A stretch of 64,000 bases of DNA from contig WHVA01000135.1 in NCBI GenBank assembly GCA_015179125.1, forward strand, positions 1 through 64,000, written 5' to 3'. The notes under the pieces are model-generated. The model was not told the DNA's origin. It ran no database searches and worked only from the letters and a program-made list of their open reading frames with translations. Shown piece after piece: positions 2 through 62,998 of the stretch. Both the position numbers and the translations under genes were made by a program. Numbering within the stretch: the stretch's first letter is position 1; the number at the start of each line of letters is the position of its first letter. The DNA comes from Gautieria morchelliformis. Lineage: Eukaryota > Basidiomycota > Agaricomycetes > Gomphales > Gomphaceae.

Positions 2-1735
2 CCTGACAATAACAGGACTGACATTGCAGCCCTAGCCACAGCCCTCGAGACCTTCGGAGATTTCAAGCGAGGCATCACCTGGAATGTCGGCAAGGAGGGC
101 ACCATGCAGCTCATCGCCATAACTAGGCTAATGCTGGAGGCTTCTCTCCTCTATGGTGTCAACAGGCTCGCGACCAACAACGACCTGCAAAAGATGACTG
201 CTGAAATCAAAGAGGCAATCTCCTCCAGCCCCAGTCTATGCCACCCCCTCCCTGCCACCTCCTACACCGCAGCAGCAAAAAGGGGGCTGGGAGGAGCTCC
301 AAACCAGGCTGCGTCACAGAAACAAAAGCTGTCGGCCAAACTCCGGCAAAAACAAGTCTTCATCTCAACAAAAGACATATCGAGGGATGTCCCCTTCCTC
401 AATTGGGAGCCTGCGATAGTAACAAGGTATTGTAATGACATCATTACTAACTTCTTCGAGCAGAACCCAGGCATGGTGCCCCTGGTGGCCCAGGCTGTCA
501 GGGGAATCGTCTGCTGCTGGAAACATCACTCTCACCTTCAAGACATTGAAGATGCCAACAAGGCCAGGGCCCTCATGGACAAGTGGGTCAGACATGTCAA
601 CCTGAAGGCCACAACCCCACAGAGATCCTTCGCTGTAGTTGCCCACAACACACTGGCTGAATTGTGGTCGGACTCAGTGTTGGGTGCATTTATGCTCCTG
701 CACCAAAATCAAGCCAAATAAATTCCACCATTTGTATTTCTTTACAATGTCTTTTCAGATTGTTCTACTATGATCACTTTATGTTCCAGAATTTTTCCGA
801 AATTTTCTATCAAAGATTTGTACTTCTATTTCGATTTTTTTTCTCCTTTTTACCACCGGCACCCTTATGTAATCATTTCAACGTGTGCTGCCATGGGCGC
901 TAAAGGGCCAGGTGGTAGTATATGCACAGTGAGACACAATTCACTGAGAGAGGCAAGGAAATTAGTCGTATTTTTTTTTGATTTGTTGACCCAGAAATCC
1001 TGTAGTGAATTGATTTCTAGTCTATTTTTTTGAACACCAAGTCCAGTCCTACTGCCTATAATTCCTGTCCTCTACACTCAGAGGATCTAGCCACCACCAT
1101 AGACAGCCTCGAAGCTGACAACCCCTGTGATACGCAAGAGGGTCATCAGATAGCAAACCTGGCTTGGCTCAACAGCTCAGAGATCTGCAAAAAAACCAAG
1201 TGTGGACCCTTACTGCTTAGCTACAGAACTAAAGCTGCAGTGAACAATGCAATCGAGAACGGTCTGGTGATTGATGGGATTATCTGCAGCATCCGCATAT
1301 ATATCCCGAGACCCCCACAATGCTTCAAGTGCCAAGACTGGGGCCACAGAGTGACGGGGTGTTCCAGGGAGGCAGGCTGTGGTCACTGTCACTGTGCAGG
1401 ACCCCATGCCACTGCAGACCACACTTGTGCCCACGAACACCCATGCCCCACCGGCGAAAAATGCGACACAGACAAAAGTGTGCAAACTGCAATGGTAACC
1501 ACGCCAGCTGGACATGCACCTGCCCTGCAGCAAGGGCCGCCGTTGATACACAGATGATGAAAGAGGAATATGTGAGGGGAAAATTTGAAGCCTACACCCC
1601 GTTCACCTTCGCAGACATTGAATACACCTTGGGAAAGCACTCTGGAACATGCCCACAATCCCCCCTGCCCCACGCACCACAATCACTGCTACAGATAAAC
1701 TACATTCCCATGACCTCCCCTCTGAGGCCCTATAC
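2..1735 (+). pseudogene. LINE ORF1 (gag-like, zinc knuckles), broken
   Basis: Nucleic-acid-binding ORF1 of the LINE. The frame is open from base 2 up to the solo LTR. The LTR plus one target duplication adds 404 bases, so the same protein continues one frame over from about 1077. The C-terminal part has a CCHC knuckle (CFKCQDWGHRVTGC), then a second Cys/His cluster (CGHCHCAGPHATADHTC). A third cluster (CANCNGNHASWTCTC) lies in another frame, so one frameshift lies near 1455-1480. The last third reads on to about 1735. The start codon is upstream of the window. Confidence 0.75.
678..1076 (+). mobile_element. Solo LTR, family F, short variant
   Basis: Begins TGTTGGGTGCATTTATGC, ends CCTGTCCTCTACA and is flanked by the 5-bp duplication ctcag (673-677 and 1077-1081). 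No internal region is present, so it is a solo LTR left by LTR-LTR recombination. It is about 90 bases shorter than the copy at 15046-15531, which shares both ends. Its insertion into the LINE shows that it is younger than the LINE. Confidence 0.9.
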
Positions 1736-5505: not shown

Positions 5506-6972
5506 AACCTCCCCCACAACAACCTCCGGCACAGATTCCTGCCCTACCTGGCATGCCTGCACCTTCTCCTGCACTGCCTTTCGGGCCTCCCGGACCTCCT
5601 GGCCCACCTCAGCCTCCTCGTGGAGGACCTTGGCTGCAACCAGGATTCCCCTGGATCCCCTATTATCCCTTTCCTTCTGCCTACCCTCAGGCTGCCCCTG
5701 ATGGTGATTCTGATGCTGCAAAACCTGACAAATTCACAGGAAAGGAACCTCGCCTTCTCTGAACATTCATCACTAGTTGTATTATGGTCTTTGACAACAA
5801 GCCACGAAAGTTCCAGCAGGAATGACAGCGAGCCTCCTATGCAGCATCCTACCTCAGCGACATTGGCTTGATCTGGTGGCAACCCTGTCTCATTCAGGTC
5901 CCAGAACCTCCCATTCGGAGCAACTGGCTTGCCTTTGTTGATGAACTTAATGGTCTTTTCGGTCAGGCCGACATCATCCAGGTTTCTGAGTGAGCTATTT
6001 GCAAGCTCAAGATGCTCAACACCCATCGTGTCAATCGCCACATGACAACTTTTGCTGAGTTGTCCTCTTACATAGAGTGGAATGATGCCACCCTTTACGA
6101 TGCTTTCTATAATAGCCTTGCTGAGCGTATCAAAGACCACATGCTCTCTTACGAATGTCCCGAAAGCCTCGACGATCTCAAGTGTCAGGCTCTTCACATT
6201 GACAATCGCTACTGGGAGCGTCAAGGTGAAAAGCAGATTACAACTTCCATTTGTCCCCCTTCCTCTTCTGAACCATCCTCCACAACACTTGCTAACACTC
6301 GTCCCAGACCCTCTGCAGCAGCCAAGCCTGACAAACAGAAGGACCTTTCTGGTATCTTTGATGCTACCGGACGTCTTACTGACGCTGAGAAAGAGCGATG
6401 GAAATCCAAAGGCCTCTGTCCTTATTGTGGCAAACCCCCCACACATCATGGGAGGGGGTGCCGCTATCAGGAGCCTGTCTCAACCACTGGCAGGGCTATC
6501 TTCACCCTCAAAGGCAATCCTCAGGTTGCCACTCTCGAAGAGGTTTCTGAAGATAGCAAAGACTCTCCCATGGAAGACTAGCGCGCGATCCCTCTGTGGT
6601 GTTAACAATGGGTCACTCTATTCCTTTGAACACCAATCCTATCCACTCTGTACCATCTGTGTATCTGTTCACTTCTATTAGTTCCCATGCTGACTCATCT
6701 TTCATCGTCTATGTACACCTTCCTGGTCTCTCTAATTCCATTCCTACTCTCATCAACTCTGGTGCCACTTCGAATTTCATTGATAGCTAATTCTCCCCTC
6801 ATCCTGGTTTCTTATTTACATTGCTCTGTTCGCCGATCACTCTCTGCCTTTTTGATAGGAAACCAGCCACCGCTGGTTTTATTCACGAATATCTAGATAC
6901 TAGTCTCATATTCAGCAAGTCCTCTTCACAGGACATTTTGCAACTTGTCACCCCTTCGACTACTCCTATTTT

Positions 6973-7926: not shown

Positions 7927-8063
7927 GTACCTCCCCCTTATGGCCGAACCAATGAGGCCGTAAGCGAGATCCCGGAGATCACCGGGTTGGGGGGGTTACA
8001 TAAGCTTAGTTTCACATTCTGCTTCTTGCCTTCTCCCTTCATCATCAAAAACTCCAGCAGATC

Positions 8064-9398
8064 ATGTTGGACATTCCTGAAACAAACAGCAACGAGATTG
8101 AGGAGCTCAACGTGGAACTCGCACACGCACAGTGAAAAGCTGAGGAGTGGCTGAAGGCACTGCAAGAAAAGCGGCGACTTGGGCAAGAGCGCAAGGAAGC
8201 TGCGGAGAAGAAACAGCGGGAGGACGAGGAAAAAGCTGAGGTCAAACAGAAGGAGTGGGAGGCACAGGCTGAGGCTGCTCGAAAGGCAAGCCGAAGAGGC
8301 ACAAAAAGCTGAAGAGGCTAGGAAAGCTGAGGAAGCGCAGGAGGCAGAAAAGAAGACCTTCAAGGTGAAAGCTGACAATGCTCGGAAGGAAATGGGGCTG
8401 GCATTTGAATGTCAGTGACAGCGACTTCTCAAATTATTGGAAGCTGAAATGATCCGACAAGCCGATGTGGATCAGAACTACCACATCCCATTGCCCGAGC
8501 CATTCATTGTGGATTCGGCAACCATGCAGGATGGGTTCTTGGCAGCAAAACATGCGGCCAAAAGAAATGTGGCTAAGGCAAAGCTGAAAGCCTCAGGATC
8601 GAAGAAGAGGAAGGTTGCCGAGGAGTCAGACGAGGAGGAGTCAGATGAAGAGGTGAGTCCTTGTGTCAGATTGGTTCGGCTTGACCTATGTTTTTATTTT
8701 CAGCATGAACCTTGTGATGCGTGCAGGTATTGCCAGACCGCAGGAAGAAAACAGCCTGCCAGCAGTGTGTGGACCAAAAGGTCCGGTGCAGTTTCCTGGA
8801 TGGGAAATGGAAGCGAAAGGATGAGGAGGCAACCGAGGGGCTGGGGCCGAAGAAGGCCAAAGTGGCTTTGGTCAAGCAATTGGGAGCCATACCGACGGTG
8901 GACATCCGTGCAGGTCCATTGGGATCGGGAATAAAGGGTTTGAAACCTGATGGATTTTCTGGAGCCGAAGTCTCCATGATGGTGAGGGAGTTGCTGTCCC
9001 GTCAGAATGAGCAGCTGGAGTGGAGCAATCACCTGCTCCGGGGAGTCTTAGACTTTGTGCAGCGGATTGAGTGGCACAACTCCTGGTTAAACAAGTGGCT
9101 CCACTTGGGGACTGCAGCAGCCGAGAACGTGGCCTTGTGGTCGGGTACAAGTTTGGATTGGGGCAGGTTTGATTTGGCTGGGGGTTTGGGTTTGGGTTCG
9201 GGGTGTGTGGAAAGGGAAAAAGGGACAGAGGAAAAAGAGAAAGAAAGAGAGAAAGAGAAAGAGGCAGAGGCAGAGGCAGAGGGAAATGCGGAAGCAGAAG
9301 TGGGGTCGGGTTTGGGTGCAGATGACGGAGACGAGGAAGATGATCGGGATGACGGGGGAAAGGACCCGGATGAGGATGCTACTATGGAGGATAATTAA
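8064..9398 (+). other. Antisense ORF of fossil B2: coiled coil, NLS-like, Cys cluster, acidic tail
   Basis: Coding-like sequence on the strand opposite to pol of B2, between the integrase and the 3' LTR, ending convergently with pol. The proposed start is ATG at 8064 (MLDIPETNSNEIEELN). A Lys/Glu/Ala-rich coiled coil follows, then a stretch with SKKRKV beside an acidic patch (EESDEEESDEE), an intron-like GTGAGT...TTTTCAG interval near 8653-8703, a cysteine-rich zone with CX2CX6C spacing (CQQCVDQKVRC), a hydrophobic helical zone and a Glu/Asp-rich tail ending near 9398. The matching ORF in B1 has the same order. The role is unknown. The half binuclear-cluster pattern suggests DNA binding by analogy only. 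It belongs to the fossil and is not intact. Confidence 0.6.
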
Positions 9399-11739
9399 CA
9401 ATACACATGAAGATACTGTTCCAGATTTTGGTTGACACGTTCGGTTTGACCATCGCCTTTGGGATGATATCCCAAGGTGAAATGCAGTTTCATGTCAAGA
9501 GCCTTACCCAGGGAATGGAAGAAATGCGAGACAAATTCCAAACCTCAGTTGGATGTCACATGGCTAGGGACACCATGTTTCGAGAAAATGTGCAAGATGA
9601 ACAGGCGGGCGAGGTCTGCGGATGTGACCGTGTCGTAGGTCGGGATGAATATGCTCTGCTTGGTTAAGCGGCAAACTACTACAAGGATTGCAGTGAATCC
9701 TGAAGATGCCGGCAACTGCTCAATGAAATCCATGGAGATGGGATTCCAAGGTTGCTCGGGTATCAGAAGCTGCTGCAGGGAGCCGTAAGGCCGATGACGC
9801 TGTGACTTTGAATGCAAGCAAGTGGTGCATGACCTGCAGAAGTCAATGATGAAAGACTGAAGTGCAGGCCATGTACATTCCCGTTGGATGAGTTCTAAGG
9901 TCTTGTTTTGGCTGAAGTGTGCCGAGAGTACATGGTCATGTTTGTACTGGAGTACTCAGTACTCTAAGCCAGAGATTGTCAGCATTGGGAATGTATATGC
10001 AGCCATCGAGGCAGAGGAAGCCATCCTCGGTTTGCATCCATCTTGGGTCGGAACTATCACCAAGATGCCGGGAGGCTATGGGATGGGATGCCAGGTTGGC
10101 TAAGATGTCAGCATGGAGCTTCTCAGAGTCCATCACAGTGCTTGCTTGGAGAACAGTTGCAAGCAAGTAAGTTGCCTGGAGGGATTCTGACAATTGTTGA
10201 CTAGTGAAGATCAGTTGGAGATTCTGCGGGTTGACTGAGCTGTAGTCATTACCTCCCTCTTTAAGGTAGACATCCCATTGTCTAGTTAGAGCATTGGGTT
10301 TTGTACTGAGCTTTCTGGGACGGAAGTGAATAATGAGGTTAAATTGCAAGAGGAATTCGGACCAGTGGGCCTGTCATCGGGTTAGCAACTTTGTGGTGGC
10401 AAAATACTCCAAGTTATTGTGATCAGTGACAACATCAATAGGGGAACTGTAGCCCTCCAAATAGTGTCTCCAACTGTGAAATGCTTCAAAAATTGCCAGT
10501 AGCTCCTTATCATGGACTTTGTAATTTTGTTTGGCACCGGAAAATGTTCAGGAGTGGAAAGTGACTGGGTGCAGGACGCCTTCATCATCAAACAGGGACA
10601 GGAGTGCACCGAGGGCATAGTCCGAGCCTTCAGTTTCCATGACCATAGGCCGGTTGGGAACCCAATGTGACAGAATCGGGGCCGAAGTGAAAGCCTCCTT
10701 GAGGTAATTGAATGACTTTTGGCATTCTTCGGTAAATGCCCACGGGTGCCTTTATGAGTTAGCCGAGTAAGGGGAACCGTGATGTCGGAATAGTTGTAGA
10801 TGAAGCGGTGATAGAAGTTGGCAAAGCTGAGGAAGGACTGAATATCCTTACCTTCCAAGACTTGGGTCAATCATGGATGGTCTGGACTTTGTCTTCAGAC
10901 ATTGTAAAGCCATTGGCAGAGAGCATATACCCAAGGAATTCCACAGAATCATGGTGCCATTCACATTTGTCAGGTTTGGCATAGAGACTGTGTTTCTGAA
11001 GATGCCACAACACTTCACAGACATGTTCCCTGTGTTTGACCAGGTTGTGAGAGTAGATGAGTATGTCGTCAAGATACACAACAATGCATACATCAAGCAT
11101 ATCTCCAAAGACGTCATTCATGAAATGTTGAAAAACCATGGGACCATTGGTCAAGCGAACAGCATGACTAGCCATTCAAAAGAGCTGTAATGGGTCTGGA
11201 AACCTGTTTTCCACTCATCGCCTTTGGCGACTTGGACAAGATGGAAGGCAAGCCGAAGGTTGATCTTGGCATAAATCCGAGCCTTTTGTGGTGCATCTAA
11301 CAAGTCAGTAATCAATGGGAGTGGATAGGGGTTCTTCTTCGTAACCTTATATAGTGCTCAGAAGTCCACCCAGAGCTGAAGTTCGCTGCTCTTCTTTTGA
11401 CAAAGAGAGGATAGGGGCTCCATGGGAGGACCTAGTGGGCTGAATGTAACCCAGATTCAAGTGCTCATCAATGAATCCTTGGAGTGTGGCAAGCTCCAAG
11501 GTAGAGAGCAAATATAATGGAGGTTGAGGAGGAGTAGCACCATCCTTGAGCACCATCTTTAGATCATAGGGTCGGTGGGGAGCCATGGAATCACCTTTGG
11601 ACTTGCTAAAGACATCTGTGAAGCCATGGTACTCAGTTGGGACATCCTTGAGATCCACTGGTTCGGAATGCACAGAAGCCAAGCGGGCCAAAGTCTTGGA
11701 TTCAGGTTGTGCCAGATTTAGCTGGAAACATCAGAACCC

Positions 11740-12852
11740 CTCTACTTTGCAGGCACAGAAAAATCCTGCCGCATTCAGGAGAGCTGTTACATATCGAGAT
11801 TTCCGCAAGTTGGAACTAGGACAAGCAGAAATGTGACGCAGCCGCAAAGAAAGCTGCGGAGGAAAAGGCTGCCCCGGAGGAGGCAGAAAACAATCAGGTG
11901 AGTTGGAAAAGGTCCTGCCAAAAATTGCTAAAACAAATTTCCATCTAGAAAACCTATGAATACGAATCTGAGACCGAGTCGAAATTGTTGGTGGAAAATA
12001 TGCTAGTTCCTGAGGGCAAAGGAAAACAAAAGGCCATGCCTTCCTCTTGGAACCTGGTGGAGGAATGGAAACTCCGGGTGGACAATTTCCAGAGGGCAAG
12101 GGCCGAGAAGGCCAGACGGATGTTGGAGCTGAGGGAGCTGGAGCCTGGGGTTGCGACAGCAATCCTCGGGAAGTGGAAAATGCGGGATGAGGATGACGTC
12201 TATATCAAGAACAATGGGGCTCTGTGTGACTCTTGCGAGGCGTGGGGCCTTAGGTGCATTTGGTCGACCAATCCCTGGGAGTCCTCATGCAAGAGGTGTT
12301 GGGGATATAAGGAAGTGATGTGTGGTCGATGGGTGCTAGGCTAGGATTGAATGCAAGAAATGCCAGAAAACTGCCAAGGGGGTCCCTAAGGCAAAGGGAG
12401 GTCCTGGCGGTAGCGGAAAAGGGGCGGATGGATTTCTGGTGGCAGGAATGTCAGAGACAGCGGTACTCAACTGCTTCTCTATGGCGTCGCCCCTCCTGGA
12501 CATCGCTAGTACAATGCTGGACATGAGGGACCAACAAGTGGAAATCAAGGAGCTCTTGGCTGATCAAAACAGCCTGCAGCAGCATCTCGTACTGACGCTG
12601 TATAATCAGCTCAGTGTCATGTTGGCCGTCCTCAAACAGACCATGCAGGAGATGCGGTGGCAGAACACCTTGGTGAAGGCCCAAATGGAGGCGACGGTGG
12701 AAAGAAATGGGGAGGCGGGCCCCAGTGGAAGGGCGAAAAGAGTTACAGAAGTGGAAAAAGAGGCTGAAGTTGAGCAGGGAGAGGCGGAGGAAGTGGAAAA
12801 GGCAGCAGAAGCGGAGAAAATGGGCGGCAAGGAAATTATCAGGGAGGAGTAA
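11740..12852 (+). other. Antisense ORF of fossil B1 with Zn2Cys6-like cysteine spacing
   Basis: Counterpart of the ORF at 8064-9398, also opposite to pol and convergent with it. A region near 12220-12330 reads CDSC...C...CKRC...C with spacing CX2CX6CX10CX2CX7C, which falls inside the fungal Zn2Cys6 binuclear-cluster consensus (CX2CX6CX5-12CX2CX6-8C). A leucine-rich helical zone (about 12480-12680) and a Glu/Ala-rich tail ending IIREE at 12852 follow. An intron-like GTGAGT...CTAG interval lies near 11898-11951. The usual basic residues between the first cysteines of Gal4-type fingers are not obvious, so the DNA-binding role is inference. Its beginning is not present. Confidence 0.6.
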
Positions 12853-13175
12853 GGGGTCGAAGTGACTTGTATATAGTTTCTTGAAGCGTAGGAAAACATA
12901 GTGTAGTGGAAATGTAATTGGGATTAAACTTGTGACTTGAGCAATGTAAGAATCAATGAGAGTGTCGGAACTGGGGTCGGAAATGACTAAGGCGTGGAAA
13001 TGGGGCCAGGCTTGGTGGGGTATGCCTTGTGGAAATCAGAGATGAGTTCAGAGGTGTGGTTGAGTTCCGTAGCGGAAATCCATGAAGTCTCTTTGTCGGT
13101 GTTTTCGTAGCCCGCCCACTTGACCATGTACTGGAGTTGGCAGTGGTAATGTCTGTCGAGCTTGGAGATGAGAAT

Positions 13176-14413
13176 TGTCAAGATTGGTTTTTAGGCATTA
13201 ATATCGTGTATTAGTGAACACAGCAAATGCCCAAATAACTTGTGCAAATAAGTATGCCATTCAGCAAAGAGGGTGAACCAATAAATGTTCACAAGATAAG
13301 GGGGCTGCCCGAACGGAGCTCGCCCTATCTACAGTCATAGTGAAATAGCCCATGGCACTTGACGATGTAATGTGCAAGGTGTCACGGAAGGGTTGTCTAA
13401 GTAGTGACAATCCCTTTGCCGACAGCACAGAGAATAGTTCAAAGGCTAAGGTAACGAAGATGAAGTATGAGAACTCACCAGTGATGCCTAAGTCTTCTTC
13501 TGGTCAAAGATAGAAATCTACAGGAGAAGGCTCAAGACGATATTCACAGCAAGGTCAAGTTTGCACAAGATGGACGTATGATAATTGAACTGGGGAATAT
13601 ACATGCAAATGTAAACTACTTATATCGAATGCTTGTAAGGTATCAGCGAATAGGAAAGAGGCCATCATGAGTCAGGGTTGGATAGGGGTATGCAGTCACG
13701 ATACAAATAGATGAAATAAACATACAATAGAGTGAGAGAGGAGTGCGAACATGAAACAACAGAGGGGAAAGAGGGCGAAGGCACCTCCTATGTATGAAAA
13801 CACACCTTAGGACCTGCATATACACCACCCTGCATGGACTCTTGTTTGCTGGGTTGATACCGCACAATCTACGGTTAGGATGTCCCGCGAATGCATCCCA
13901 GCCATATGAACACCTAAAGGGGTTGCATTAGGAAGGTGATGGGGCCAGTGATGAACCATCATGCAGGGCAGGGGATGTCGATCGTGTTTTGATGGTGTGC
14001 CTGCTGGCGAATGATGCGAGCAGCAAATGGTCGTTCGGTGAATGTGACGAAGGGCAAACAGAGAGAACAAAGAGGAGGAGTGGTTGAGGGGAGGGGCGAA
14101 GCCAAGCGAACACAGAGAAGGAGTGATGAAAGGGGAAACAGGGATATCTGTGTGTAGGAAATATACGAGGCATGCTAACCCGACCATAGGAATATTGAAA
14201 GGTGTTTGAGCCGGGGAGGTGATAGGGACAGTGATGAACACTATGCTGGACCAAGGGCATTGATCATTCTTTGATGGTGTGGCTGTAGCAAATGATGCGA
14301 ACAGCGAAGACAAATCGTTGAACTCGGCGAAGGGTGATTGGAATGAACATAGAGGCGTAGTGAGGAGTGGGAGGACAGAGTGACATGGTATAGGAAATAA
14401 ACGCGTCATGACA
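13176..14413 (-). mobile_element. Solo LTR1 inside the B1 chromodomain
   Basis: 1238 bp with inverted ends TGTCA...TGACA and the 5-bp duplication agaat on both sides (13171-13175 and 14414-14418). The chromodomain coding sequence of B1 continues on either side. Related copies are at 2275-2893 and 21588-22310, both on the plus strand. Orientation is set minus because it is the reverse of the copy that heads fossil A. Confidence 0.9.
13930..14400 (-). repeat. About 238-bp duplicated unit inside LTR1
   Basis: Two adjacent segments of LTR1 (about 13930-14160 and 14170-14400) share an order of similar words, such as the gtgatg-aac-at block followed by ttttgatggtgt or ctttgatggtgt and atgatgcgaaca/gca. 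The copy at 21588-22310 has only one unit, which accounts for its being about 240 bp shorter over the comparable span. Confidence 0.65.
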
Positions 14414-15045
14414 AGAATTTCCGATATTTCATATTCCGGTTCTCCATTGATGATGACTGGCAGAGACAGAGGTTGTTCACAATTTGGAATAGTATTTGGA
14501 ACTGAGGGCTCAAGCATGGAGACATGGAATACCGGGTGTACTGCACACATATTGTCAGGGAGTCTGAGAGTGAAAGAACAACTGCCAGCCTTAGCGATGG
14601 GTTTGTAAGGACCAAGGTATTTTTCAGAGAGCTTCTTCAAAGGGAAAGTGGTGTGGAAGTTTTCAGCTTTGATGAAGACTTTGTCGCCTATCTCGGATGC
14701 CGGCTGCAGAAGATGTTTCCAATCAGCGGAAGTTTGGTATCTCTTTTGGGCAGTGGAAATGTTCTCTCGGAGGTGTTGGTGAAGGTTGTCGAGTTCCACA
14801 ACGAAGTCTTGGGCTCTGGCAGAGGCGAGAGCACATTCAGGGTGGATGGTGAGATTCAGGTGGTAGCCCTTGTTGGTGGCGGAAGGCGCATTGTTGTAAG
14901 CAAATTCTGCGAGCAGGAAGAAGGTCAGACCAGTTGCTGTGTTGGTAGTTGCAATAGACGCAGAGGTACTGCTCAAGGGTCTGATCAGTACATTCTGTTT
15001 AGCCATCATCTTCAGGCTGATAACCGGAAGTACAGTGGAGCTTCA

Positions 15046-15531
15046 TGTTGGGTGCATTTATGCTCCTGCACCAAAATCAAGCCAAATAGGTTCCACCATA
15101 CATATTTCCTTCCAATTTCTTTTCAGATTGTTCTACTATGATCAATCTATTTTTCAGAGTTTTTCCGAAATTTTCTATCAAAGATTTGTACTTCTATTTC
15201 GATTTGTTTTTCTTCTTTTCACCACCGGCATCCATACGTAATCATTTCGACGCGTGCTGCCATGGGTACTAAAGGGCCGGGTGGTAGTATATGCACAGTG
15301 AGACACATTCCCCCCCTCTCTCAGTGACAGCTAAATTCACTGAGAGAGGCAAGTAAGTTAGTCTTATTTTCCTTCTATTTGTTGACCCAGAAATCCTGTA
15401 GTGACATGATTTCTAGGTAGTGTATAATATTAACAGTGACAACTAAATTCACTGAGAGAGTGAATTGATTTCTAGTCCATTCTTTTGAGTATCAAGTCCG
15501 AACCTACTGCCTATAATTCCTGTCCTCTACA
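15046..15531 (+). mobile_element. Solo LTR, family F, full-length variant
   Basis: 486 bp, TGTTGGGTGCA...CCTCTACA, flanked by cttca on both sides (15041-15045 and 15532-15536), inserted in the integrase of B1. The uninterrupted homologous site near 29725-29740 confirms the insertion point. The phrase ttcactgagagag occurs inside more than once. Confidence 0.92.
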
Positions 15532-28774: not shown

Positions 28775-29262
28775 TGTTGGCAACTAGGGGCTATGGCAGG
28801 GAAGGTTCGGTAGAGTTCTTAGAAAGCTAGAATCAAATATACTCTCTCAGTGAATTTATTGTCACTGATGTATTAATACAATACCTAGAATCAAATATAC
28901 TACATGATTTTCAGTCAACATGGTATGTAAATATGAAGAATACTACTCGCCTCTCTCAGTGAATTTATTGTCACTGAGAGAGGAGTGTAATCCTGTCTCA
29001 GAAGGCATATACTTGCACCCGGCCCTTTAGCGCCCAAGGGCTCGCGCGTCGAAGTCATTTCAAACTCCGCTGGGTGCAGCCGCCTGTGAAAGTAGAAATA
29101 ACAGAATGAAATGGAGAGATAGAGAGTGACTGGAAAATTTCGAAAATAAGCAGAGAAATGGATGCATGGTACAAGAACAGTATGAGAAAATATTGAAACA
29201 CCACACAATAAATTGAATATATTATGCTTGATTTTGGTGCAGGAGCATAAATGCACCCAACA
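28775..29262 (-). mobile_element. Family F LTR with unlike flanks
   Basis: 488 bp, TGTTGGCAACTAGGGGC...GCACCCAACA, nearly the same as 5018-5505. One flank is copia gag and the other is gypsy B integrase, and the adjacent 5-mers (accct and gatga) do not match. This suggests recombination between two F insertions, or loss of one flank. Confidence 0.8.
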
Positions 29263-30029
29263 GATGATCTCGTAAGGACCAAGGTATTTCTCAGAGAGCT
29301 TCTTCGAGGGGCGAGTGGTGCGGAAGTTTTCAGCTTTGACGAAGACTTTGTCGCCTATCTCGAATGCCAGTTGCGGAAGGCGTTTCCGATCGGCGGAAGT
29401 TTGATATCTCTTCTGGGCAGCGGTAATGTTTTCTCGGAGGTGCTGGTGAAGGTCGTCAAGTTCCACAACGAAATCTCGGGCTCTTGCAGAGGCGAGGTCA
29501 CGTTCGGGGTGGATGGCGAGATTTGGGTGGTAGCCCTTGTTGGTGTAAAAGGGTGAAATTCCGGTGGTAGCGGAAGGCGCATTGTTGTAGGCAAATTCCG
29601 CGAGCGGAAGGAGGTCGGACCAATTGCTATGTTGGTAGTTGCAATAGACGCGGAGATACTGCTCAAGGGTCTGATTAGTACGTTCCGTTTGTCCGTCTCC
29701 TTCGGGATGATAACTGGAAGTGAAGTGGAGCTTCATGTCGAGGGCCTTGCCGAGTGTGCGGAAAAAGGATGACACGAATTCGGAACCACGGTCGGAAGTG
29801 ACATGGGAAGGGATTCTGTGCTTGGAAAAGACGTGGAGCACGAAGAGTTGGGCGAGTTGGGTGGAAGTGATGGTGTTGTAGGTCGGAATAAAGATGGACT
29901 GCTTTGTAAGGCGGTCACCAATTACTAGAATGGTATCATAGCCAGATGACTTAGGAAGTTTCTCAATGAAATCCATGGATATCGAATTCCACGGTTGTTC
30001 TGGGATCGGAAGTTGCTTCAGGAGGCCGT
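29263..30029 (-). mobile_element. Gypsy B integrase fragment (B3)
   Basis: Minus-strand fossil piece with integrase core and C-terminal region of the B family (IPEQPWNSISMDFIEKLPK, the DRGSEFVSSFF zone, YHPEGDGQTERTNQ, LPLAEFAYNNAPS, KKLSEKYLGPYE). It is well preserved and supplies the uninterrupted reference for the insertion sites in B1. It is cut by the F LTR on one side and element C on the other. Confidence 0.8.
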
Positions 30030-30491: not shown

Positions 30492-33400
30492 GCAGAAAAG
30501 TCTCTCCCCTAGAGGACCGGCGGTCGTACTGCGCGTTGCATTCGCCATAGGTGCGTTCGGAATCGGAGACAGCGACTCGGATATCGCAACCTCTTCCGCA
30601 CACACAGCATACAACAGCCCCTCTTCTTACATCGAGCTCCCAACCCCGGAAATCCCGTCCCATATTTCTCCTTCCAACATGGATCCGGACGATCGTCTTC
30701 GGAATATGGAGGAGGAATTGACGCGGAACCGGATGAAGACCGACGCGATTGAAACAGCCTTACAAGCGATTTTGGCTAAGTTAGATATTCCACAAGGTGG
30801 TGGAAATGAAATGCTGGATGATCCGGATTTCGGAAAAGCGGAACTAGCGGAAAAGAGGATGTCCGCGAAGTTAGCAAAGGTCAAACCCGCAACTCCGGCG
30901 GACTTTGACGGAGATCGGGAGAAGGGACGCGCATTCTTCAACACATGCAGCATCTACTTCGCAATTGTCGGAGACCTCTTTCCGAACGACCAGGCTCGGA
31001 TTCACTGGACGTTGTCCTTTTTCAAATCGGACCGCGCAGCCCGTTTTGCAAACAAGGTGATCCGACATGAAGCAAAGGGCAAGGGGAACTACTTCCGGGA
31101 CTGGGACGCGTTCGAGAAAACATTTTCCGACCAGTTCTGCCCGAAAAACGAGCAGCTCACAGCCCTTACAAAGCTCGAGGGGACGAGCTGGTACCAGGCC
31201 AAAGATCCGGTCGATGACTACATCGATCGCTTCCAGGAGCTCATCGACCTTGCGGAATATGACGACGACAAGACGATCGTCATCAAATTCCGACGAGGAC
31301 TTGATCCGACGCTCCAGAACCAAGTTGCGCTGCTTGGGGATGGAGCTCCGGATTTTGATGACCCGGAAGGGTGGTACCAAGCTGCGCAGAAGGTTTCTCG
31401 GAACAGGGAGGCAAATGAGGCCTTCGTGGAGACGAGTCGGAACACGACATGCAGTTCCGCTCGTCCTACTCAACCTGTGCCAAAACCCGGAAGCGCATTC
31501 ATTCCCACACGGAAATTATTTCCGATGCTTGCTCCGCCTGCTCCTATTAGGAACCATAGCCCTCCTCCCTCGAAGAGTGGCCCTGCCCCGATGGATGTTG
31601 ACCGCATGCGCGGAAAGGCCACGGAACTATCACCTGCTTCCGCTGCCGACAACCAGGCCACTACGCTCGCGAGTGCCCCCAAGCCTTTGATATCCGGCTT
31701 ATGACCACAGAGGAGAAACTCGAGATCCTTCCAGAGTTCCTCGCGCTTGCAGACATAAACGGAGTGCCCACTGCGGAAGAGCTTTCCGAAAATGCGGAAC
31801 ATGGTCTACCGGAAGCGGAAGATGCGTCGGATTTTGTGACACGCAGCGGGTGAGATGTGTGCCCCTGCTGCCTGTACATAACCGGTTTGCCTGTCTTGAA
31901 GTAGAGAATGAAAAGCCCCCACTCCCCTCACTTCGTACAGACCCACCGGATAAAGTCACACAAAAACCAAATCTGACACCCCATCCATCCCGCATCCGCC
32001 CTTGGGAGAGACGCCTTCCGAAGCGCTATGTTGTTGCTGCCACCCCTGGCCCCAAGTCACTAGTCATTAAGGTGGAGATCCAGACGACAGATACGGCGGA
32101 AGTCAAATCCGGACCCGCCCTTGTCGATTGCGGGGCCACTGGTCAGTTTATGGACCGGGACTATGTGGAACGGAACCGACTGACCACGCGGAAGTTGCAA
32201 CGTGCAATCCCGGTGTTCAATGTGGATGGAAGCCCCAATGAGGCAGGGTCCATCACGGAGATAGTAGACACAATTCTCCGCTACGATGGACACTCAGAAC
32301 GCACTTCCTTTGCAGTCACCAGCCTGGGGAAGCAGGACATCATCCTCGGGTTTACCTGGCTTCAGGAGCACAACCCGGAGATCAATTGGCAGACTCGGAA
32401 GGTACTGATGAGTCGATGTCCAGCCAAGTGTCACATGTGCAGGTCGGAACTGCGGAAGGAGCGCCAGGAGCAGCGGAAGACCGAACGGCTCATACAGACA
32501 TGTCGTTCTGGCCCCCATCCACTGCTTGCAGAAGAAGACTCGGAAGCGGAATTTGAACCGGATCCCACTTCCGATTCCGATTCCGATTCCGACTCCGACG
32601 TCATCCGACTCGGCCCGGAAGACACTCTGGCGGAAGGGGAGCGCTTGCTGTAGTAAACCTTCCCCGGAAGCGGAACACATCCGCGCCACCGGAAATATTT
32701 CGCAACGCCTTGCTGAAGCCTCCAAGAGGCATGATAGAGTAGAGGCGGAAATTCCGGAGTACCTGCGAGAGTTCGAGGACGTCTTTTCCAAGGAGTCGTT
32801 TGATACCCTGCCTCCACGGAAGCTGTGGGACCACGCCATCGAGTTGGAGCCTGGGTCAAAGCCCACCAACTGCAAGGTCTACCCGCTGTCACCCAAGGAG
32901 CAGGTAGAGCTCGATGCGTTCCTTGCGGAAAACCTCCGTACAGGGAGGATCCGCCCCTCCAAGTCACCCATGGCATCTCCGGTGTTCTTCATCAAGAAGA
33001 AGGATGGCTCGCTCAGACTTGTGCAGGACTACCGGGCCTTGAATGCGATCACGATCAAGAACCGGTACCCATTCCACTCATTTCCGAACTGATCACACAA
33101 CTCCGCGGGGCGAGGTACTTCACTAAGCTGGATGTCCGCTGGGGCTTCAACAATGTCCGGATCCGGGAGGGAGACGAGTGGAAGGCCGCATTCCGCACCA
33201 ATCGAGGACTCTTTGAGCCACAGGTCATGTTCTTTGGCCTCACCAACAGTCCCGCCACATTCCAGACGATGATGAATGACATTTTCCGTGACATGATAGC
33301 AGAAGGGGTTGTCTGCGTCTACCTCGATGACATCCTCATTTTCACGAAAACAATGTCCGAACATCGGGAATCGTGCGGAGAGTGCTGGAACGGCTCCGGG

Positions 33401-35764
33401 AGTACAACCTGTGTCTCAAGCCGGAAAAGTGCGAATTTGAGCGGACGCGGATAGAGTATCTTGGGGTGATTGTGTCGGAAGGAAAGGTGGAAATGGACCC
33501 AGTCAAAGTTTCCGGTGTATCGGATTGGCCCGTGCCGCGAAACAAGAAGGAGGTCCAGTCCTTCATTGGGTTTGTCAATTTCTACCAGCGGTTCATCAAG
33601 GACTTCTCCTGCCACGCCCGTGCCCTCTTCGACCTCACCAAGAAGGAGGTTGGATGGCGGTGGGGAGAGCCGGAACAGACTTCCTTTGACAAACTCAAGG
33701 AGCTGATCACTTCCGCCCCGGTCCTGATCTTTCCCGACGACTCTCGCCCTTATCGAGTCGAGGCGGATCTTCCGACGCAGCTACCGGAGCGGTCTTGTCA
33801 CAGCAGTCATCGGAGATGGTGGGGGGTGGCATCCGATTGCCTTCTTCTCTAAGAGCCTTAGTCCGGTCGAGCGGAACTATGAGATCCATGACAAGGAATG
33901 CTGGCAATCATCCGAGCGCTGGAGGAGTGGCGACACTTCCTCGAGGGTGCTCTATGCCCTTTTGAGATCTGGACAGACCACAAGAACCTCGAGTATTTCC
34001 GCACGGCTAAGAAGCTGAACCGACGACAAGCACGGTGGTCCCTACACCTGTCCCGGTTTGACTTCATGCTCCACCACCGCCCCGGCCGCACCATGGGCAA
34101 GCCCGATGCCCTATCCCGCCGCGCGGATCACGGAAGCGGAAGTGGAGACAACGCGGATATGACACTGCTCCGCCCAAGTCTCTTTGCAATCCGTGCCCTA
34201 GAAGGAGTAACTGCAGTTGGGGCGGAAGCGGAAATGCTCCGGGATATCCGGAGGCAGTACCGGAATGGTGAGAAGGAGGAGTCGGTGGTGAAGGCAGTGG
34301 AGGAACTCCGGAAGGGGCACTCACGGTCTGTACGGGCAGCGGAATGGTCGGAACGTGATGGACTGCTCCACTTCAGAGGCAAGGTCTATGTTCCGGGTGG
34401 GGCGGACCTCCGCCGTCGCATCGTGTCCCAGCACCATGACACACGGGTCGCTGGGCATGCTGGCAGGTGGAAGACGCTGGAGTTAGTGGCTCGGAATTAC
34501 TGGTGGCCTCAGATGTCCCGCTACATCGGACAGTACGTGAAGACGTGTGACCTTTGTCTCCGAACCAAAGCGCAACGACGTCCGCCCGTCGGAGAACTTG
34601 TTCCGCTCCCGATTCCCGAATCCCGCTGGGACACCATCAGTGTCGACTTCATCGTTGAACTCCCAGAGTCTCATGGCTACGATGCGATCATGAACGTCGT
34701 GGATTCGGTGAGCAAGGTGTCCCACTTCATTCCGACACACACGACGATCACAGCCCTCGGAGCGGCCCGCCTGTTCCTTGCACATGTCTGGAAGTTGCAT
34801 GGGCTCCCGAAGCAAGTCGTTTCCGACCGAGGTCCGCAGTTTGTCGCGGAACTGACTCGGGAGCTCTACCGCCTGCTCGGCATAAAGCTGGCTACCACCA
34901 CAGCGTACCATCTGCAGGGTGACGGACAGACGGAATGGGTCAATCAGGAGTTGGAGCAATATCTCCGCCTCTTTGTCAATGAGAGGCAGGATGACTGGGA
35001 TGAGTTACTTCCGCTGGCGGAATTCCAATACAACAACCATGTCCATTCCGCCACGCAACAGACTCCCTTCATGCTTGACTCCGGACGACACCCGCGGATG
35101 GGCTTCGAACCACGCCAGGCTGACTCCCGACTCGAGACGGTCAATGAGTTCCGAGACCGCATGGACTCCACCCTTTCGGAAGCCAAGTCGGCCCTTGCGA
35201 AGGCCAAGGATGACATGGCAAGGTACTACAACCAACGCCGGGTTCCTGCCCCAGAGTACCAAGTTGGAGACAAGGTGTACCTAGATGCAAGTGACATCCG
35301 CACCACACGCCCTTCGCAGAAGCTTGCCCACCGCTACCTTGGGCCCTTCACAGTGACGCGGAGGGTTGGACGGAATGCATACCGCCTCCGACTTCCGATG
35401 TCCATGTCCCGCCTCCACCCTGTCTTCAATGTGGTGAAGTTACTCCCTATGCTTGAGGACCCAATTCCACGTCGGAAGGCTCATCCGCCACCTCCGCCAG
35501 AAATTGTAGATGGGGAAGAGCACTACATGGTAGAACGGATCCTGGACAGCCGGTTTGTGCGAGGACGACTCCAATTCCTCGTGAAATGGGAAGGGTATGG
35601 GTACGAGGAGAATTCGTGGGTCCCGGAGCAAGATGTTTCCGCTCCTGACAAACTCCGGCAGTTCTACAGGACACATCCAGGTGCCCCTCGCCGAATCCGC
35701 TCGCTGGCATTTCAATCCCTCGTGTCCCGTGCTTCGAGGACGCAGCACGCTAGAGGGGGGGTGA

Positions 35765-36226
35765 TGTCAGGGGACACCCTGTTTTCCATTTCCAGTTCCG
35801 ACTCCATTTCCGACTCCGCTTCCGGTTCCGATTCCATCTCCGCATCCGCTTTCGGGAACAATTCCGCTTCTGGGAGAACTTCCACCAGTTCCGTTCGCCT
35901 TGCCAGTTCCACTCCCATTTCCGACTTCCGCCCCGGAACAGTGTCGGAAATCAAGCGACTCGCATAATAGGTGGCATCAAGGGTCGATCAAGGGTCAGGG
36001 GGATGCAGGGTTGATGGCGGGTGCTAAGCGTTGTCCCTGGCTGCGCAGCGTAGTATAATACGGGCTCGCTGACATTGGGGGTCCTTAGACTTTTCTCTTT
36101 GGATTTCCCCTTGTCAGGTGAGAACCCCCTCTCTTGTATGCTCTGTTCATTTATACATACTTTGGATTTCCCCTTGTCAGTTGTGTGGTAGTGTGATCTC
36201 CACGACTAGCCAGGGTTGCCCTTACA
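35765..36226 (+). repeat. 3' LTR of element C
   Basis: Same sequence as the 5' LTR apart from about three substitutions. The last pol frame of C stays open across the polypurine tract into this LTR and closes near 35967, adding a Ser/Asp-rich tail encoded by the hexamer array. Confidence 0.92.
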
Positions 36227-36561
36227 GACCAGCAAATCATGCGAGTAATCGGCAAGATGAGCCCATACAAAACTCCAGGGCCTTCTGTACTCTCCAACGC
36301 AGTACTAACCCACTGTGCAGACCTGCTAACCCTCCATCTAGGGTGTATCTACCACGGGACGTTCCACCTCGACATATACCCCAAGCAATGGAGAACTACC
36401 ACCATTGCCGCTTTAAGGAAGCCAGGAAAGCCCGACTACACACTGGCAAAAGCTTACCGCCCCATTACACTGATGGACACCTTAGCCAAGCCACTCTCAG
36501 GGTGTGTAGCTGAGACGCTAACCTACTATGCCGAAGCACTCCAACTAGTGTTGCTGCCAGC
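36227..36561 (+). pseudogene. LINE reverse transcriptase fragment
   Basis: Start of a Tad-like LINE reverse transcriptase. KMSPYKTPGPSVLSNAVL is the motif before RT block 1, then ALRKPGKPDYTLAKAYRPI and TLMDTLAKPLS (block 2). About 110 residues are open, then element D begins at 36562. The catalytic FADD-type block is not present. The downstream LINE piece at 40196-41291 has the same orientation and may be the other end of the same insertion, with the middle missing. Confidence 0.75.
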
Positions 36562-36985
36562 TGTAAGGGCAACCCTGGCTGGTTGTGGATCACACTACAC
36601 ACAACTGACAAGGGGAAATCCAAAGAGCAAAGTCTAAGGACCCCCAATGTCAGCGAGCCCGTATTATACTACGCTGCGCAGCCAGGGACAACACTTGGCA
36701 CCCACCATCAACCCTGCATCCTCCTGACCTCCCTGACCCTTGATCGACCCTTGATGCCACCTATTACGCGAGTCGCTTGATTTCCGACACTGTTCCGAGA
36801 GTGGAAGCCGGAAATTGGAGTGGAACTGGCAAAGCGAACAGAACTGGTGGAAGTTCTCCCAGAAGCGGAATCATTTCTGAAAGCGGAGGCGGAGATGGAA
36901 TCGGAACCGGAAGCGGAGTTGGAAATGGAGTCGGAACTGGGTGTGGTGTCGGAACTGGAAATGGAAAACAGGGTGTCCCCTGACA
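36562..36985 (-). repeat. 3' LTR of fossil D
   Basis: 424 bp, reverse complement of the C-type LTR, directly following the purine tract of D on the minus strand. Its hexamer array has extra units relative to C (a gtgtcggaactgg repeat). Confidence 0.85.
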
Positions 36986-38031
36986 TCACCCCCCTCTAGT
37001 GTGCTGCGTCCTCGAAGCACGGGACACGAGGGATTGAAATGCCAGCAAGCGGATTCGGCGAGGGGCACCGGGGTGTGTCCTATAGAACTCATGGAGTTTG
37101 TCTGGAGGGGAGACATCTTGCTCTGGGACCCACGAATTCTCCTCATACCCATACCCTTCCCATTTCACGAGGAATTGGAGTCATCCTCGCACAAACCGGC
37201 TGTCCAGGATCCATTCCACCACATAGTGCTCTTCCCCATCTACAATTTCTGGTGGAGGTGGCGGACGAGCCTTCTGACCTGGAATTGGGTCCTCAAGCGT
37301 AGGGAGTAACTTCACCATGTTGAAGACGGGGTGGAGGCGGGACATGGACATCGGAAGTCGGACGCGGTATGCATTCCGTCCAACCCTCCGCATCACTGTG
37401 AAGGGCCCAAGGTAGAGGTGGGCAAGCTTCTGTGAAGGGCGTGTGGTGCGGATGTCACTTGCATCTAGATACACCTTGTCTCCAACTTGGTACTCCGGGG
37501 CAGGAACCCGGCGTTGGTTGTAGTACCTTGCCATGTCATCCTTGGCCTTTGCAAGGGCGGACTTGGCTTCCGAAAGGGTGGAGTCCATGCGGTCTCGGAA
37601 CTCATTGACCGTCTCGAGTCGGGAGTCAGCCTGGCGTGGTTCGAAGCCCATCCGCGGGTGTCGTCCGGAGTCAAGCATGAAGGGAGTCTGTTGTGTGGCG
37701 GAATGTACATGGTTGTTGTATTGGAATTCCGCCAGTGGAAGTAACTCATCCCAGTCATCCTGCCTCTCATTGACAAAGAGGCGGAGACATTGCTCCAACT
37801 CCTGATTGACCCGTTCCATCTGTCCGTCACCCTGTGGATGGTACGCTGTGGTGGTAGCCAGCTTTATGCCGAGCAGGCGGTAGACTCGGTCGGAAACAAC
37901 TTGCTTTGGGAGCCCATGCAACTTCCAGACATGTGCAAGGAACAGGCGGGCCGCTCCGAGGGCTGTGATCGTCGTGTGCATCGGAATGAAGTGGGACACC
38001 TTGCTTACCGAGTCCACGACATTCATGATCA

Positions 38032-38461
38032 TGTTAGCAACTTGGGGTTATGGCAGGGAAAGTTCGGTAGAGTTCTTAGAAAGCTAGAATCAAATACACT
38101 ACATGATTGTCAGTCAACATGCTATGTAAATATGAAAGATACTACTCGCCTATCTCAGTGAATTTATTGTCACTGAGAGAGGAGTACAATCCTGTCTCAG
38201 AAGGCATATACATGCACCCGGCCCTTTAGCGCCCAAGGGCTCGCGCGTCGAAGTCATTTCAAACTCCGCTGGGTGCAGCCGCCTGTGAAAATAGGAATAA
38301 CAGAATGAGCTGGAGAGATAGGGAGTGACTGGAAATTTTCGAAAATAATCAGAGAAATGAATGCATGGTACAAGAACAATGTGAGAAAGAATTGGAACAC
38401 CATACAGTAAATCGAACACATTATGCTTGATTTTGGTGCAGGAGCATAAATGCACCCAACA
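38032..38461 (-). mobile_element. Solo LTR, family F, in fossil D
   Basis: 430 bp, TGTTAGCAACTTGGGG...GCACCCAACA, inserted in the integrase of D. Flanks gatca (38027-38031) and gatcg (38462-38466) are a 5-bp duplication with one mismatch. The undisturbed site in C near 34685 supports the insertion point. Confidence 0.88.
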
Positions 38462-40195
38462 GATCGCGTCCTAGCCATGAGACTCTGGGAGTTCAACGAT
38501 GAAGTTGACACTGATGGTGTCCCAGTGGGATTTGGGAATCAGGAGTGGAACAAGTTCTCCGACGGGCGGATGTCGTTGCGCTTTGGTTCGGAGACAAAGG
38601 TCACATGTCTTCACGTACTGTCCAATGTAGCAGGACATCTGAGGCCACCAGTAATTCTGAGCCACTAACTCCAGCGTCTTCCACCTGCCAGCATGCCCAG
38701 CGACCCATGTGTCATGGTGCTGGGACACGATGCGGCAGCGGAGGTCCGCCCCACCTGGAACGTAGACCTTGCCTCTGAAATGGAGCAGTCCATCACGTTC
38801 CGACCATTCCGCTGCCCGTACAGACTGTGAGTGCCCTTTCCGAAGTTCCTCCACCGCCTTCACCACCGACTCCTCCTTCTCTCCATTCCGGTACTGCCTC
38901 CGGATGTCCCGGAGCATTTCCACTTCCGCCCCAACTGCAGTCACTCCCTCTAGGGCGCGGATTGCAAAGAGACTTGGGTGGAGCAGTGTCATATCCGCGT
39001 TGTCTCCACTTCCGCTTCCATGATCCGCATGGCGGGATAGGGCATCGGGCTTGCCCATGGTGCGGCCGGGGCGGTGGTGGAGCATGAAGTCGAACCGGGA
39101 CAGGTGTAGGGACCACCGTTCTTGTCGTCGATTCAACTTCTTAGATGTGCGGAAATACTCGAGGTTCTTGTGGTCTGTCCAGATCTCAAACCGGCATAGA
39201 GCACCCTCGAGGAAGTGTCGCCACTCCTCCAGCGCTCGGATGATTGCCAGCATCTCCTTGTCGTGGATCTCATAGTTCCACTCAACCGGACTAAGGCTTT
39301 TAGAGAAGAAGGCAATCGGATGCCATCCCCCATCATCTTCCGATGACTGTTGTGACAAGCCCGCTCTGGTAGCTGTGTCGGAAGAATCCGCCTCGACTCA
39401 ATAAGGGCGAGAGTCGTCGGGAAAGATCAGGACCGGGGCAGAAGTGATCAGCTCTTTGAGTTTGTCAAAGGAGGCCCTGGCTCTCCCCACTGCCATCCAA
39501 CCTCCTTCTTGGTGAGGTCAAAGAGGGCACGAGCATGGCAGGAGAAGTCCTTGATGAACTCCCGGTAGAAATTGACAAACCCAATGAAGGACTGGACCTC
39601 CTTCTTGCTCTGCGGCACAGGCCAATCCGATACACCCGAAACTTTGACCGGGTCCATTTCCACCTTTCCTTCCGACACAATCACCCCAAGGTACTCTATC
39701 CGCATCCGCTCAAATTCGCACTTTTCCGGCTTGAGACACAGGTTGTGCTCCCGGAGCCGTTCCAGCACTCTCCACACAACCTCCCGATGTTCCAACATTG
39801 TTTTTGTGAAGATGAGGGTGTCATTGAGGTAGACGCAGACAACCCCTTCTGCTATCATGTCACGGAAGATGTCATTCATCATCGTCTGGAACGTGGCGGG
39901 ACTATTGGTGAGGCCAAAGAACATGACCTGTGGCTCAAAGAGTCCTCGGTTGGTGGGGAATGTGGCCTTCCACTCATCTCCCTCCCGGATCTGAACATTA
40001 TTGAAGCCCCAGCGGACATCCAGCTTAGTGAAGTACCTTGCCCCATGGAGTTGTGTGATCAGTTCAGAAATGAGTGGAATGGGGTACCGGTTCTTGATGG
40101 TGATCGCATTCAAGGCCCGGTAATCCTGCACAAGTCTGAGTGAGCCGTCCTTCTTCTTGATGAAGAACACCGGAGATGCCATGGGTGACTTCACC

Positions 40196-60980: not shown

Positions 60981-61285
60981 CACTGGAGGCATATAAAGAT
61001 TTTCTGGTCTGAAAAACTGTTCAAAAAATTGTAAAGATATTCCAAATTTTTTTAGTGTTTTTAATGTAAAAAAATTTAAAGTTTTTTGCAGGGTTTTTCA
61101 TGTCTTTTTATAAGTTTCTTTGTGAAAACACAAAGAAACACATAAAAAACCCTGAAAAAAACTTTGAATTTTTTTACAATTTTCTCGCTCAACAAATTCT
61201 AATAAAAACACTAAAAATATTTGGAAAATCTTTACAGTTTTTTCAACTGTTTTTCAGACAAGAAAAATTTTATAAGCCGGCAGTG
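60981..61285. mobile_element. CACTG-terminated MITE, copy 1
   Basis: 305 bp, CACTGGAGGCATATAAAG...CCGGCAGTG, with imperfect terminal inverted repeats of about 60 bp (ctggtctgaaaaactgttc mirrored at the other end) and a central palindrome around ctttgtgaaaacacaaag. The 3-bp flanks (acg and gat) do not match. No coding capacity. Confidence 0.8.
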
Positions 61286-61658
61286 GATGGGGGTAAAGGA
61301 AGTGAAGTTGGCGCCTGGAGAGGCGGGGTGAGGGGGCGGAGAGTGGTGGGAGGGGGATGGAAAGGGTGGAGTGAAGAGGTGGGGAGAGGAATCGTGAGGA
61401 TATGGAGTGATGGCTACATGCGCGAGGGGGAGAGGTGAGGGATAGCGGACCGATAGGGATGTGGAGCGGGAGAGGGAGATGGAGCATAGGATTTGATTCG
61501 ATGGGGTAAGGTATGCATTGCAAATGCTGGGGACAAGATACATGCCAGATGTGCAATAAGCGAGGCTCAAGAGAAAACAACATGTGATGCATCATTTGTC
61601 CATGTATGTAAGGTTCATTTTATTCATCTAAACCTTGCTAAGGTCATAATATGAAATA
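61286..61658. other. Purine-rich spacer
   Basis: G/A-rich stretch (ggagagg, ggggag words) to about 61500, then unassigned sequence. No gene seen. Confidence 0.35.
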
Positions 61659-62952: not shown

Positions 62953-62998
62953 AGTGGTGAGGTGCGTGCTGATTGGTGAGATGTATGGCACTTGCAGC

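Follow-up and report, generated by a model that had tools for sequence, protein, structure and literature searches.

A predicted spliced antisense gene with a Gal4-like cysteine zone, very probably exchanged as a cassette, in chromodomain Ty3/gypsy elements of Gautieria morchelliformis

Introduction

Reports of antisense genes in long terminal repeat (LTR) retrotransposons go back to the 1990s (Grande), and the passages of PMC7264820 that deal with them still call their function unknown. In plants they are known as aORF-3R and comprise gene23 of Grande, RIRE2, Retand with TRP28 and PvRetro13 (relevant passages of PMC7264820 and PMC11963269). Among fungi, the element Boty/BcGypsy1 of Botrytis cinerea carries the antisense gene brtn (passages of PMC7264820, PMC8365987 and PMC4227169). 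The human T-cell leukemia viruses (HTLV) encode HBZ and APH, spliced antisense genes on the 3' LTR side whose products are nuclear regulators; according to the sections of PMC3185765 concerned, HBZ of HTLV-1, the well-studied case, contains a bZIP domain and exerts its effect via CREB and p300. Here we describe a putative antisense gene of a chromodomain Ty3/gypsy family in the basidiomycete Gautieria morchelliformis. It was noticed in two decayed elements within a 64,000-nucleotide stretch (contig WHVA01000135.1, positions 1 to 64,000, forward strand; hereafter the window), which we name W1 (upper element) and W2 (lower element) and which were analysed by sequence only.

Results

The element family in the genome

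The genome searched was the window's own (122.07 Mb, 1113 contigs). The W1 exon gave 412 first-look candidates, 150 of which were scored and all matched at E up to 10; an intact antisense protein gave 1071 candidates, with 103 scored. The candidate numbers are loose upper counts and the scored numbers lower bounds. W1 and W2 both belong to this high-copy family. Twenty loci were chosen for their long frames, so that intact open reading frames (ORFs) are found there by choice. Complete relatives measure about 8 kb, and both LTRs were found in 15 of the 20 loci, the pairs being 93.8–100% identical. They share one plan, namely an LTR of about 660–700 bp, the antisense ORF, a gap of about 120–150 nt, pol, gag and the second LTR, with the antisense ORF starting about 122 nt inside the LTR. 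Where open, pol has 1257 codons and gag 497. Pfam detected protease, reverse transcriptase (RT), RNase H, integrase and chromodomain, in that order, in the pol of the representative locus L034, and capsid and zinc-knuckle matches in its gag. With gag, a domain-ordered pol and flanking LTRs, the family is a chromodomain Ty3/gypsy (chromovirus) lineage, as the sequence-only reading of the window had proposed. Scans of viral contigs with the antisense protein and with pol revealed no relatives.

The antisense gene, of about 375–424 codons, encodes a Lys/Glu coil, six cysteines spaced CX2CX6CX10CX2CX6C, a leucine-rich coil and an acidic tail. It occurs in several types, designated A, B, C, D and F.

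Codon and intron evidence for an antisense gene

In exon 2, the ratio of nonsynonymous to synonymous change (dN/dS, quoted throughout from the Nei-Gojobori method NG86 only) was 0.07–0.33 in all 78 pairs of 13 representatives. The corresponding dS reached 0.92–1.19 among types A, B and C (0.93 for A-B) and 0.38–0.40 between C and D. When the frames were compared in five pairs, only the + frame, that of the antisense gene, was stop-free, with a ratio of 0.12–0.24. The other frames contained stops and gave ratios of at least 0.85, except for the antiparallel frame sharing third positions (0.23–0.42, with 2–5 stops). The two outcomes that the sequence-only reading had regarded as fatal to its proposal, absence of the ORF from intact members and neutral change of its codons, were not encountered: intact relatives carry the ORF, and the ratios are low in every pair.

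Thirteen of 14 copies, which cover types A, B, C, D and F as well as older copies, share a GT-AG stretch of 47–57 nt at a single position, and its predicted removal leaves one frame of 375–424 codons. Several donor and acceptor sites were tried and the stop-free readings kept; for type F, the intron is one of three possible readings. The type A intron (51 nt) leaves the frame open either way, with 401 codons if retained and 384 if removed, and in the type A loci L031–L040 the retained-intron form is possible beside the shorter one. The fourteenth copy, the older L052, fits only a 41-nt intron with a shifted first exon and stands outside the 13. In the genomic RNA the intron is present in antisense, so splicing of that RNA could not remove it, which would account for its survival through retrotransposition. 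Taken together, these results make it almost certain that the frame is a real antisense gene, and its codons indicate that exon 2 is under purifying selection.

The gene accompanies near-identical pol copies

The 20 loci had been picked by their own ORF; the search was therefore reversed and started from pol. The integrase/chromodomain part of pol was used as the query, and among the 143 rows listed we used the 71 at 99–100% identity. An antisense cassette or a remnant of it was present beside all 71 of these pol copies (at least 99% identity). Sixty-four could be typed from the listed matches; in all 64 the cassette adjoins pol on the opposite strand, at a distance of 129–152 nt in 48 of them, while larger gaps mostly stem from partial hits or from type D, which is longer. 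The remaining seven were examined individually. L041, L047 and L056 are type B with internal deletions, L043 belongs to type A and has numerous single-base gaps, L053 retains only the 3' part of A, and L054 and L055 represent the new type F. L043 had been considered a new type on its 56% protein identity; this was rejected, as it is type A at the DNA level (93.7%, with 53 gap openings). The deleted cassettes of L041, L047 and L056 sit on backbones of 99–100% pol identity, so either the element can spread after loss of the antisense gene or the loss is recent.

Twelve loci, picked by us from the pol list with the ORF unseen and not at random, all carried the gene or a remnant; seven of them are within the 71. 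The near-identical pol copies are accompanied by type A in 31 cases, B in 19, C in 10, D in 7, F in 2 and further variants in 2. These assignments follow cut-offs that we set on the listed matches: 89–100% identity to L034 for A, 94–100% to L021 for B, 95–100% to L044 for C, 84–86% to L044 for D (the L045 group), and 80% and 89% to L044 for X. The proposal of an element-encoded antisense gene is thus strongly supported by its presence at 71 of 71 pol copies, its single orientation, the purifying selection and the antisense-strand intron.

The antisense gene behaves as an exchanged module

L021 (B) and L034 (A) are 91–100% identical in all 400-nt intervals outside the ORF and 73–76% identical inside it. 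Mean distances were calculated for ten A and ten B copies, omitting segments shorter than 40% of the reference length (16 copies for gag, 19 for the RT part and all 20 for the others). Within A, within B and between A and B, they were 1.39, 0.96 and 1.19% for gag, 1.22, 0.90 and 1.08% for the RT part, 1.57, 0.90 and 1.54% for the integrase part, and 2.08, 1.85 and 2.38% for the LTR; for the cassette they were 1.96, 1.95 and 25.23%. Since the cassette varies within types as much as the LTR does, it is not merely a faster-mutating region. The dS of pol was 0.028 and 0.039 in two A-B pairs and 0.035 in one A-A pair, and that of the cassette 0.93 between A and B.

Types A, B, C, D and F were each found beside near-identical pol. 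In a pol tree of 16 copies (L031 was excluded because it was misaligned), type A as a single clade was rejected by the approximately unbiased (AU) test (p 0.014), and the only starred pair, a well-supported sister pair (99/94), joins L036 and L021, one A and one B. Sites linked to type occupy 1910–1937 at the LTR edge (L034 numbering) and run from 2071 through the ORF to a right limit at 3440, the pol stop; the following 800 nt of pol hold none, except columns at the end of the alignment. The exchanged module spans the region from the 3' LTR edge to the end of pol. In type D an A-like tail comes after a C-like one, and the cassette is, as its sequence reads, a visible hybrid; in L045 the acidic tail of C-like form precedes an A-like tail, and the two may be a hybrid or a tandem tail. 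All these data make it very probable that the antisense gene has been exchanged as a module between elements, a feature that the sequence-only reading had not brought out.

The types are deeply diverged. In the portion of exon 2 that aligns, type F shares 31% identity with A; its cysteine spacing is identical, and most of its other copies are older. W2 and locus L057 form a still more distant branch; hhalign aligned the L057 cysteine zone to our alignment A1 with 92.6% probability (E 4.6e-7).

Features of the predicted protein

The first 28 residues are the best kept, and the middle, the second coil and the tail are the most variable. The six-cysteine zone is retained in every type examined. 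Among 53 sequences (52 loci and W1), 40 follow the Zn2Cys6 spacing CX2CX6CX5-12CX2CX6-8C, 39 with a last gap of X6 and one, the decayed L008, ending in X5; a last gap of X7 is peculiar to W1. Type F, read separately, also has this spacing. In L057 the spacing is CX2CX6CX7CX2CX6C. The basic stretches seen in alignment A1 suggest possible nuclear import, and Pfam aligns residues 110–122 of L045 (the basic half) to positions 1–13 of the Zn_clus model, which found 33 matches in the whole genome. Sequence searches of the PDB gave no zinc-cluster hit; the best profile match was a coil of V-ATP synthase subunit D (E 0.0026), and a single antisense protein found nothing below E 0.2. By eye, the older copies L008–L020 have Trp or Gln in the cysteine zone where the young ones have Arg, as would be expected of C-to-T decay at CG.

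CGG repeats at the LTR edge

Three full LTRs contain 15–18 CGGAA motifs each, against 1.6–1.8 in shuffled sequences, none of 1000 of which was as high. The motifs cluster at the LTR edge adjoining the antisense gene and near the other LTR end, and the type-linked LTR sites fall inside the edge array. CGG is the half-site of zinc-cluster proteins.

The two copies of the window

W1 provided the starting observation. Its + strand frame 11985–12344 contains CDSCEAWGLRCIWSTNPWESSCKRCWGYKEVMC from position 12225, with the spacing CX2CX6CX10CX2CX7C. Across the window in all six frames (64 kb), this zone is the sole stop-free match to C-2-C-6-C-5..12-C-2-C-6..8-C, and none arose in 60 Markov resamples. 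Position, strand, cysteine spacing and repetition in two copies are likewise present as first described. The coil, the leucine-rich helix and the acidic tail are found in the W2 antisense gene (8064–9398), whose cysteine zone is broken by a frameshift. In each copy, pol pieces on the - strand adjoin the antisense gene tail to tail.

The W2 3' LTR ends in ...TGTAACA at 7926; just inside lies a polypurine-tract-like stretch (7927–7945), and the LTR edge GTAACAGTATCTCCCTTCT is common to W2 and the family loci. The first exons of both window copies were delimited by reading the sequence. Exon 1 of W2 (8064–8652, +) encodes the Lys/Glu coil and has an in-frame TGA at 8133. It is followed by an intron-like GTGAGT...TTTCAG of 51 nt (8653–8703, +), the related L057 having GTGAGT...TTAG at the matching place, and by exon 2 (8704–9398, +; frame 8721–9398), with the disrupted cysteine zone, the leucine-rich helix and the acidic tail, 36% identical to L057 over 155 aa. 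The W2 pol remnant (9398–11784, -) consists of four tblastn pieces, which reach from the integrase core to the stretch ahead of RT (RVT_1, E 1.3e-16); pol residues after 1010 were not found by tblastn in this interval.

W1 meets W2 pol exactly (11784/11785), as an element inserted there would. Of its LTR, an end remnant of 41 nt is left (11785–11825), 83–86% identical to family LTRs. Then come the tail of exon 1 (11826–11897, +), an intron-like GTGAGT...TCTAG, also of 51 nt, at the place of the family intron (11898–11948, +), and the first part of exon 2 (11949–12344, +), which includes the cysteine zone (12225–12323) and is 45% identical to residues 123–230 of the L034 protein. The rest of exon 2 (12340–12852, +), in another frame, encodes the leucine-rich coil and acidic tail and is 50% identical to L034 residues 233–365. 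The intron-like stretches of the two copies were absent from the sequence-only reading. The W1 exon had no match in Pfam. W1 pol is split by other sequence: its C-terminus (residues 1193–1257, 78% identity) lies at 12990–13184 (-), and the next pieces (residues 962–1197, 79% and 66% identity) at 14413–15097 (-), the gap between them being an insertion at 13185–14412. The stretch 13176–13786, which overlaps this insertion, is repeated in inverted orientation at 2283–2893.

Elsewhere in the window, 29260–30027 (-) holds an integrase fragment 96% identical to the pol of the young family, so that a young copy or fragment of that family lies in the window too. A remote gag relative of another gypsy lineage (28% identity to L034 gag) lies at 5688–6551 (+). 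The region 32961–40191 forms a long inverted arrangement, with arms at 32961–35760 and 36989–40191 matching piecewise at 93–96% around a 1.2-kb spacer, and 60981–63341 contains AT-rich stretches that are repeated three times, in part also in inverted orientation.

Discussion

We propose that this chromodomain Ty3/gypsy lineage encodes its own spliced gene, antisense to gag-pol and located in the interval that separates the pol stop from the 3' LTR. Its product would have six cysteines in a Gal4-like zone, together with basic stretches, two coils and an acidic tail. The gene would be transcribed from the LTR side and its mRNA spliced; the sense genomic RNA would contain only the complement of the intron, which could in this way outlast retrotransposition. 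The protein may enter the nucleus, dimerise and bind DNA, perhaps at the CGG-rich repeats of the LTR edge, and may thereby tune transcription or silencing of its own element. Exchange of the module would be explained most simply by template switching between co-packaged RNAs. On balance, we consider a spliced, DNA-binding, element-encoded regulator working like HBZ of HTLV-1 the most likely explanation, and we infer its expression, binding and regulatory role from the features of the sequence.

Several observations count against this explanation or limit it. Zn_clus (PF00172) was matched weakly in nine of nine members, always below the cut-off (best score 19.2 bits against a curated cut-off of 21 bits), and L057 had no Zn_clus match in Pfam. 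The basic recognition stretch of Gal4 lies in the first cysteine half; here the basic run CRDKKRRC is in the second. CGGAA is strand-biased across the whole element (117 versus 30), so the LTR array may reflect composition and is a hint only. The LTR-edge variant is not strictly bound to type: the B remnant L041 has the A form, the A copy L043 the B form, and type C the B form. Finally, the types are partly clustered on the pol tree (3 changes versus 5.5 in shuffles); exchange was therefore repeated but not free, and the view of a backbone without any memory of type is weakened.

Other explanations were weighed. The frame could be a by-product of a gene on the sense strand or of base composition, and other long frames do overlap: there are stop-to-stop frames of 320 and 254 aa on the sense strand within type A cassettes, and gag contains an antisense frame of 272 aa. 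This is already contradicted by the frame test, in which the + frame alone was stop-free with the lowest ratio, and by the intron, which reads only on the antisense strand; we give it practically no weight. Hardly more credible is a cassette that was never exchanged and simply mutates or evolves faster than the rest. Accessory genes can evolve fast and the cassette is the only differing region, but cassette and LTR vary alike within types (1.96 versus 2.08% in A, 1.95 versus 1.85% in B), the difference between types is mostly synonymous (A-B dS 0.93 versus 0.028–0.039 in pol), and no A-B intermediates on the same backbone were seen among the copies listed and fetched. The swaps might also be assembly chimeras between collapsed repeats, in an assembly that is broken at repeats, where several family loci stop at contig ends and L043 is full of single-base gaps. 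However, A, B, C and D each occur at no fewer than seven places beside near-identical pol, and in ten copies each of A and B the fixed linked sites mark out identical boundaries, making this very improbable.

A functional antisense RNA, acting through double-stranded RNA or silencing with the protein as a by-product, is equally improbable. RNA-based roles have been raised for plant antisense ORFs in passages of PMC7264820, but such a role would not conserve amino acids at a dN/dS of about 0.2, nor would it keep an intron that has to be taken out to restore the frame, and RNA as the only role is already unlikely. The strongest competitor, which we regard as possible though clearly less probable than a regulator, is an exchanged and selected protein that serves integration targeting, import of the pre-integration complex or anti-silencing. 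The anatomy suits any nuclear accessory protein, and the plant antisense proteins are nuclear with no role assigned (PMC7264820, in the passages on them); the six-cysteine zone kept in all types examined and the adjoining CGG-rich LTR edge speak for the regulator without being decisive.

The persistence of several old types on one young backbone suggests selection for diversity. Under a regulator acting on its own element, the exchanged segment might even be a type-specific 'immunity region', in which the antisense regulator and its CGG-rich target at the LTR edge repress copies of the same type; rare types would therefore spread and old types stay alive on the young backbone. We hold this extension to be rather unlikely as it stands. 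Heteroimmune lambdoid phages are near-identical elements that differ in one exchanged, regulator-bearing segment; the likeness is an analogy only, and the fungal LTR-edge variant is not strictly bound to type. Should the types indeed be self-regulating, the immunity groups of phages would have a retrotransposon counterpart in fungal genomes. Whatever its role, the antisense gene has codons that are demonstrably selected and an intron that fixes its reading strand at the sequence level, its protein resembles a fungal class of transcription factors, and the natural swaps on one near-identical backbone offer a ready comparison of its effect.

Compared with Gal4-type Zn2Cys6 proteins (PF00172), the predicted protein shares six cysteines in allowed spacing, basic residues and coils, and differs by its score below the Pfam cut-off and by having the basic half second. 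With HBZ it shares a spliced antisense gene near the 3' LTR, here predicted from sequence, whose transcript would start on the LTR side; no homology is claimed, and bZIP families gave no Pfam match in the fungal antisense proteins at E up to 10. Like aORF-3R, the gene occupies the interval from pol to the 3' LTR and is present in most members of its family; for the plant genes, a regulatory role has been proposed and DNA binding predicted for TRP28 (passages of PMC7264820 and PMC11963269). The plant elements described there are not chromodomain elements of fungi, and PF04195 (TRP28) had no match in the fungal antisense proteins at E up to 10. PMC7264820 does not contain the words intron and zinc, nor PMC11963269 intron and zinc finger, and the aORF-3R passages of both leave exchange of types unmentioned. 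Boty is likewise a fungal Ty3/gypsy element with a chromodomain pol and an extra antisense gene; it is an ascomycete element, compared here by description only, and the passages describing it mention neither intron nor exchange. In the literature searched, most subscription papers excepted, no report was found of a fungal LTR element whose antisense gene is zinc-cluster-like, spliced or exchanged. Plants and Boty already provide examples of antisense genes in this position; what is new here is an exchanged cassette in several deeply diverged types.

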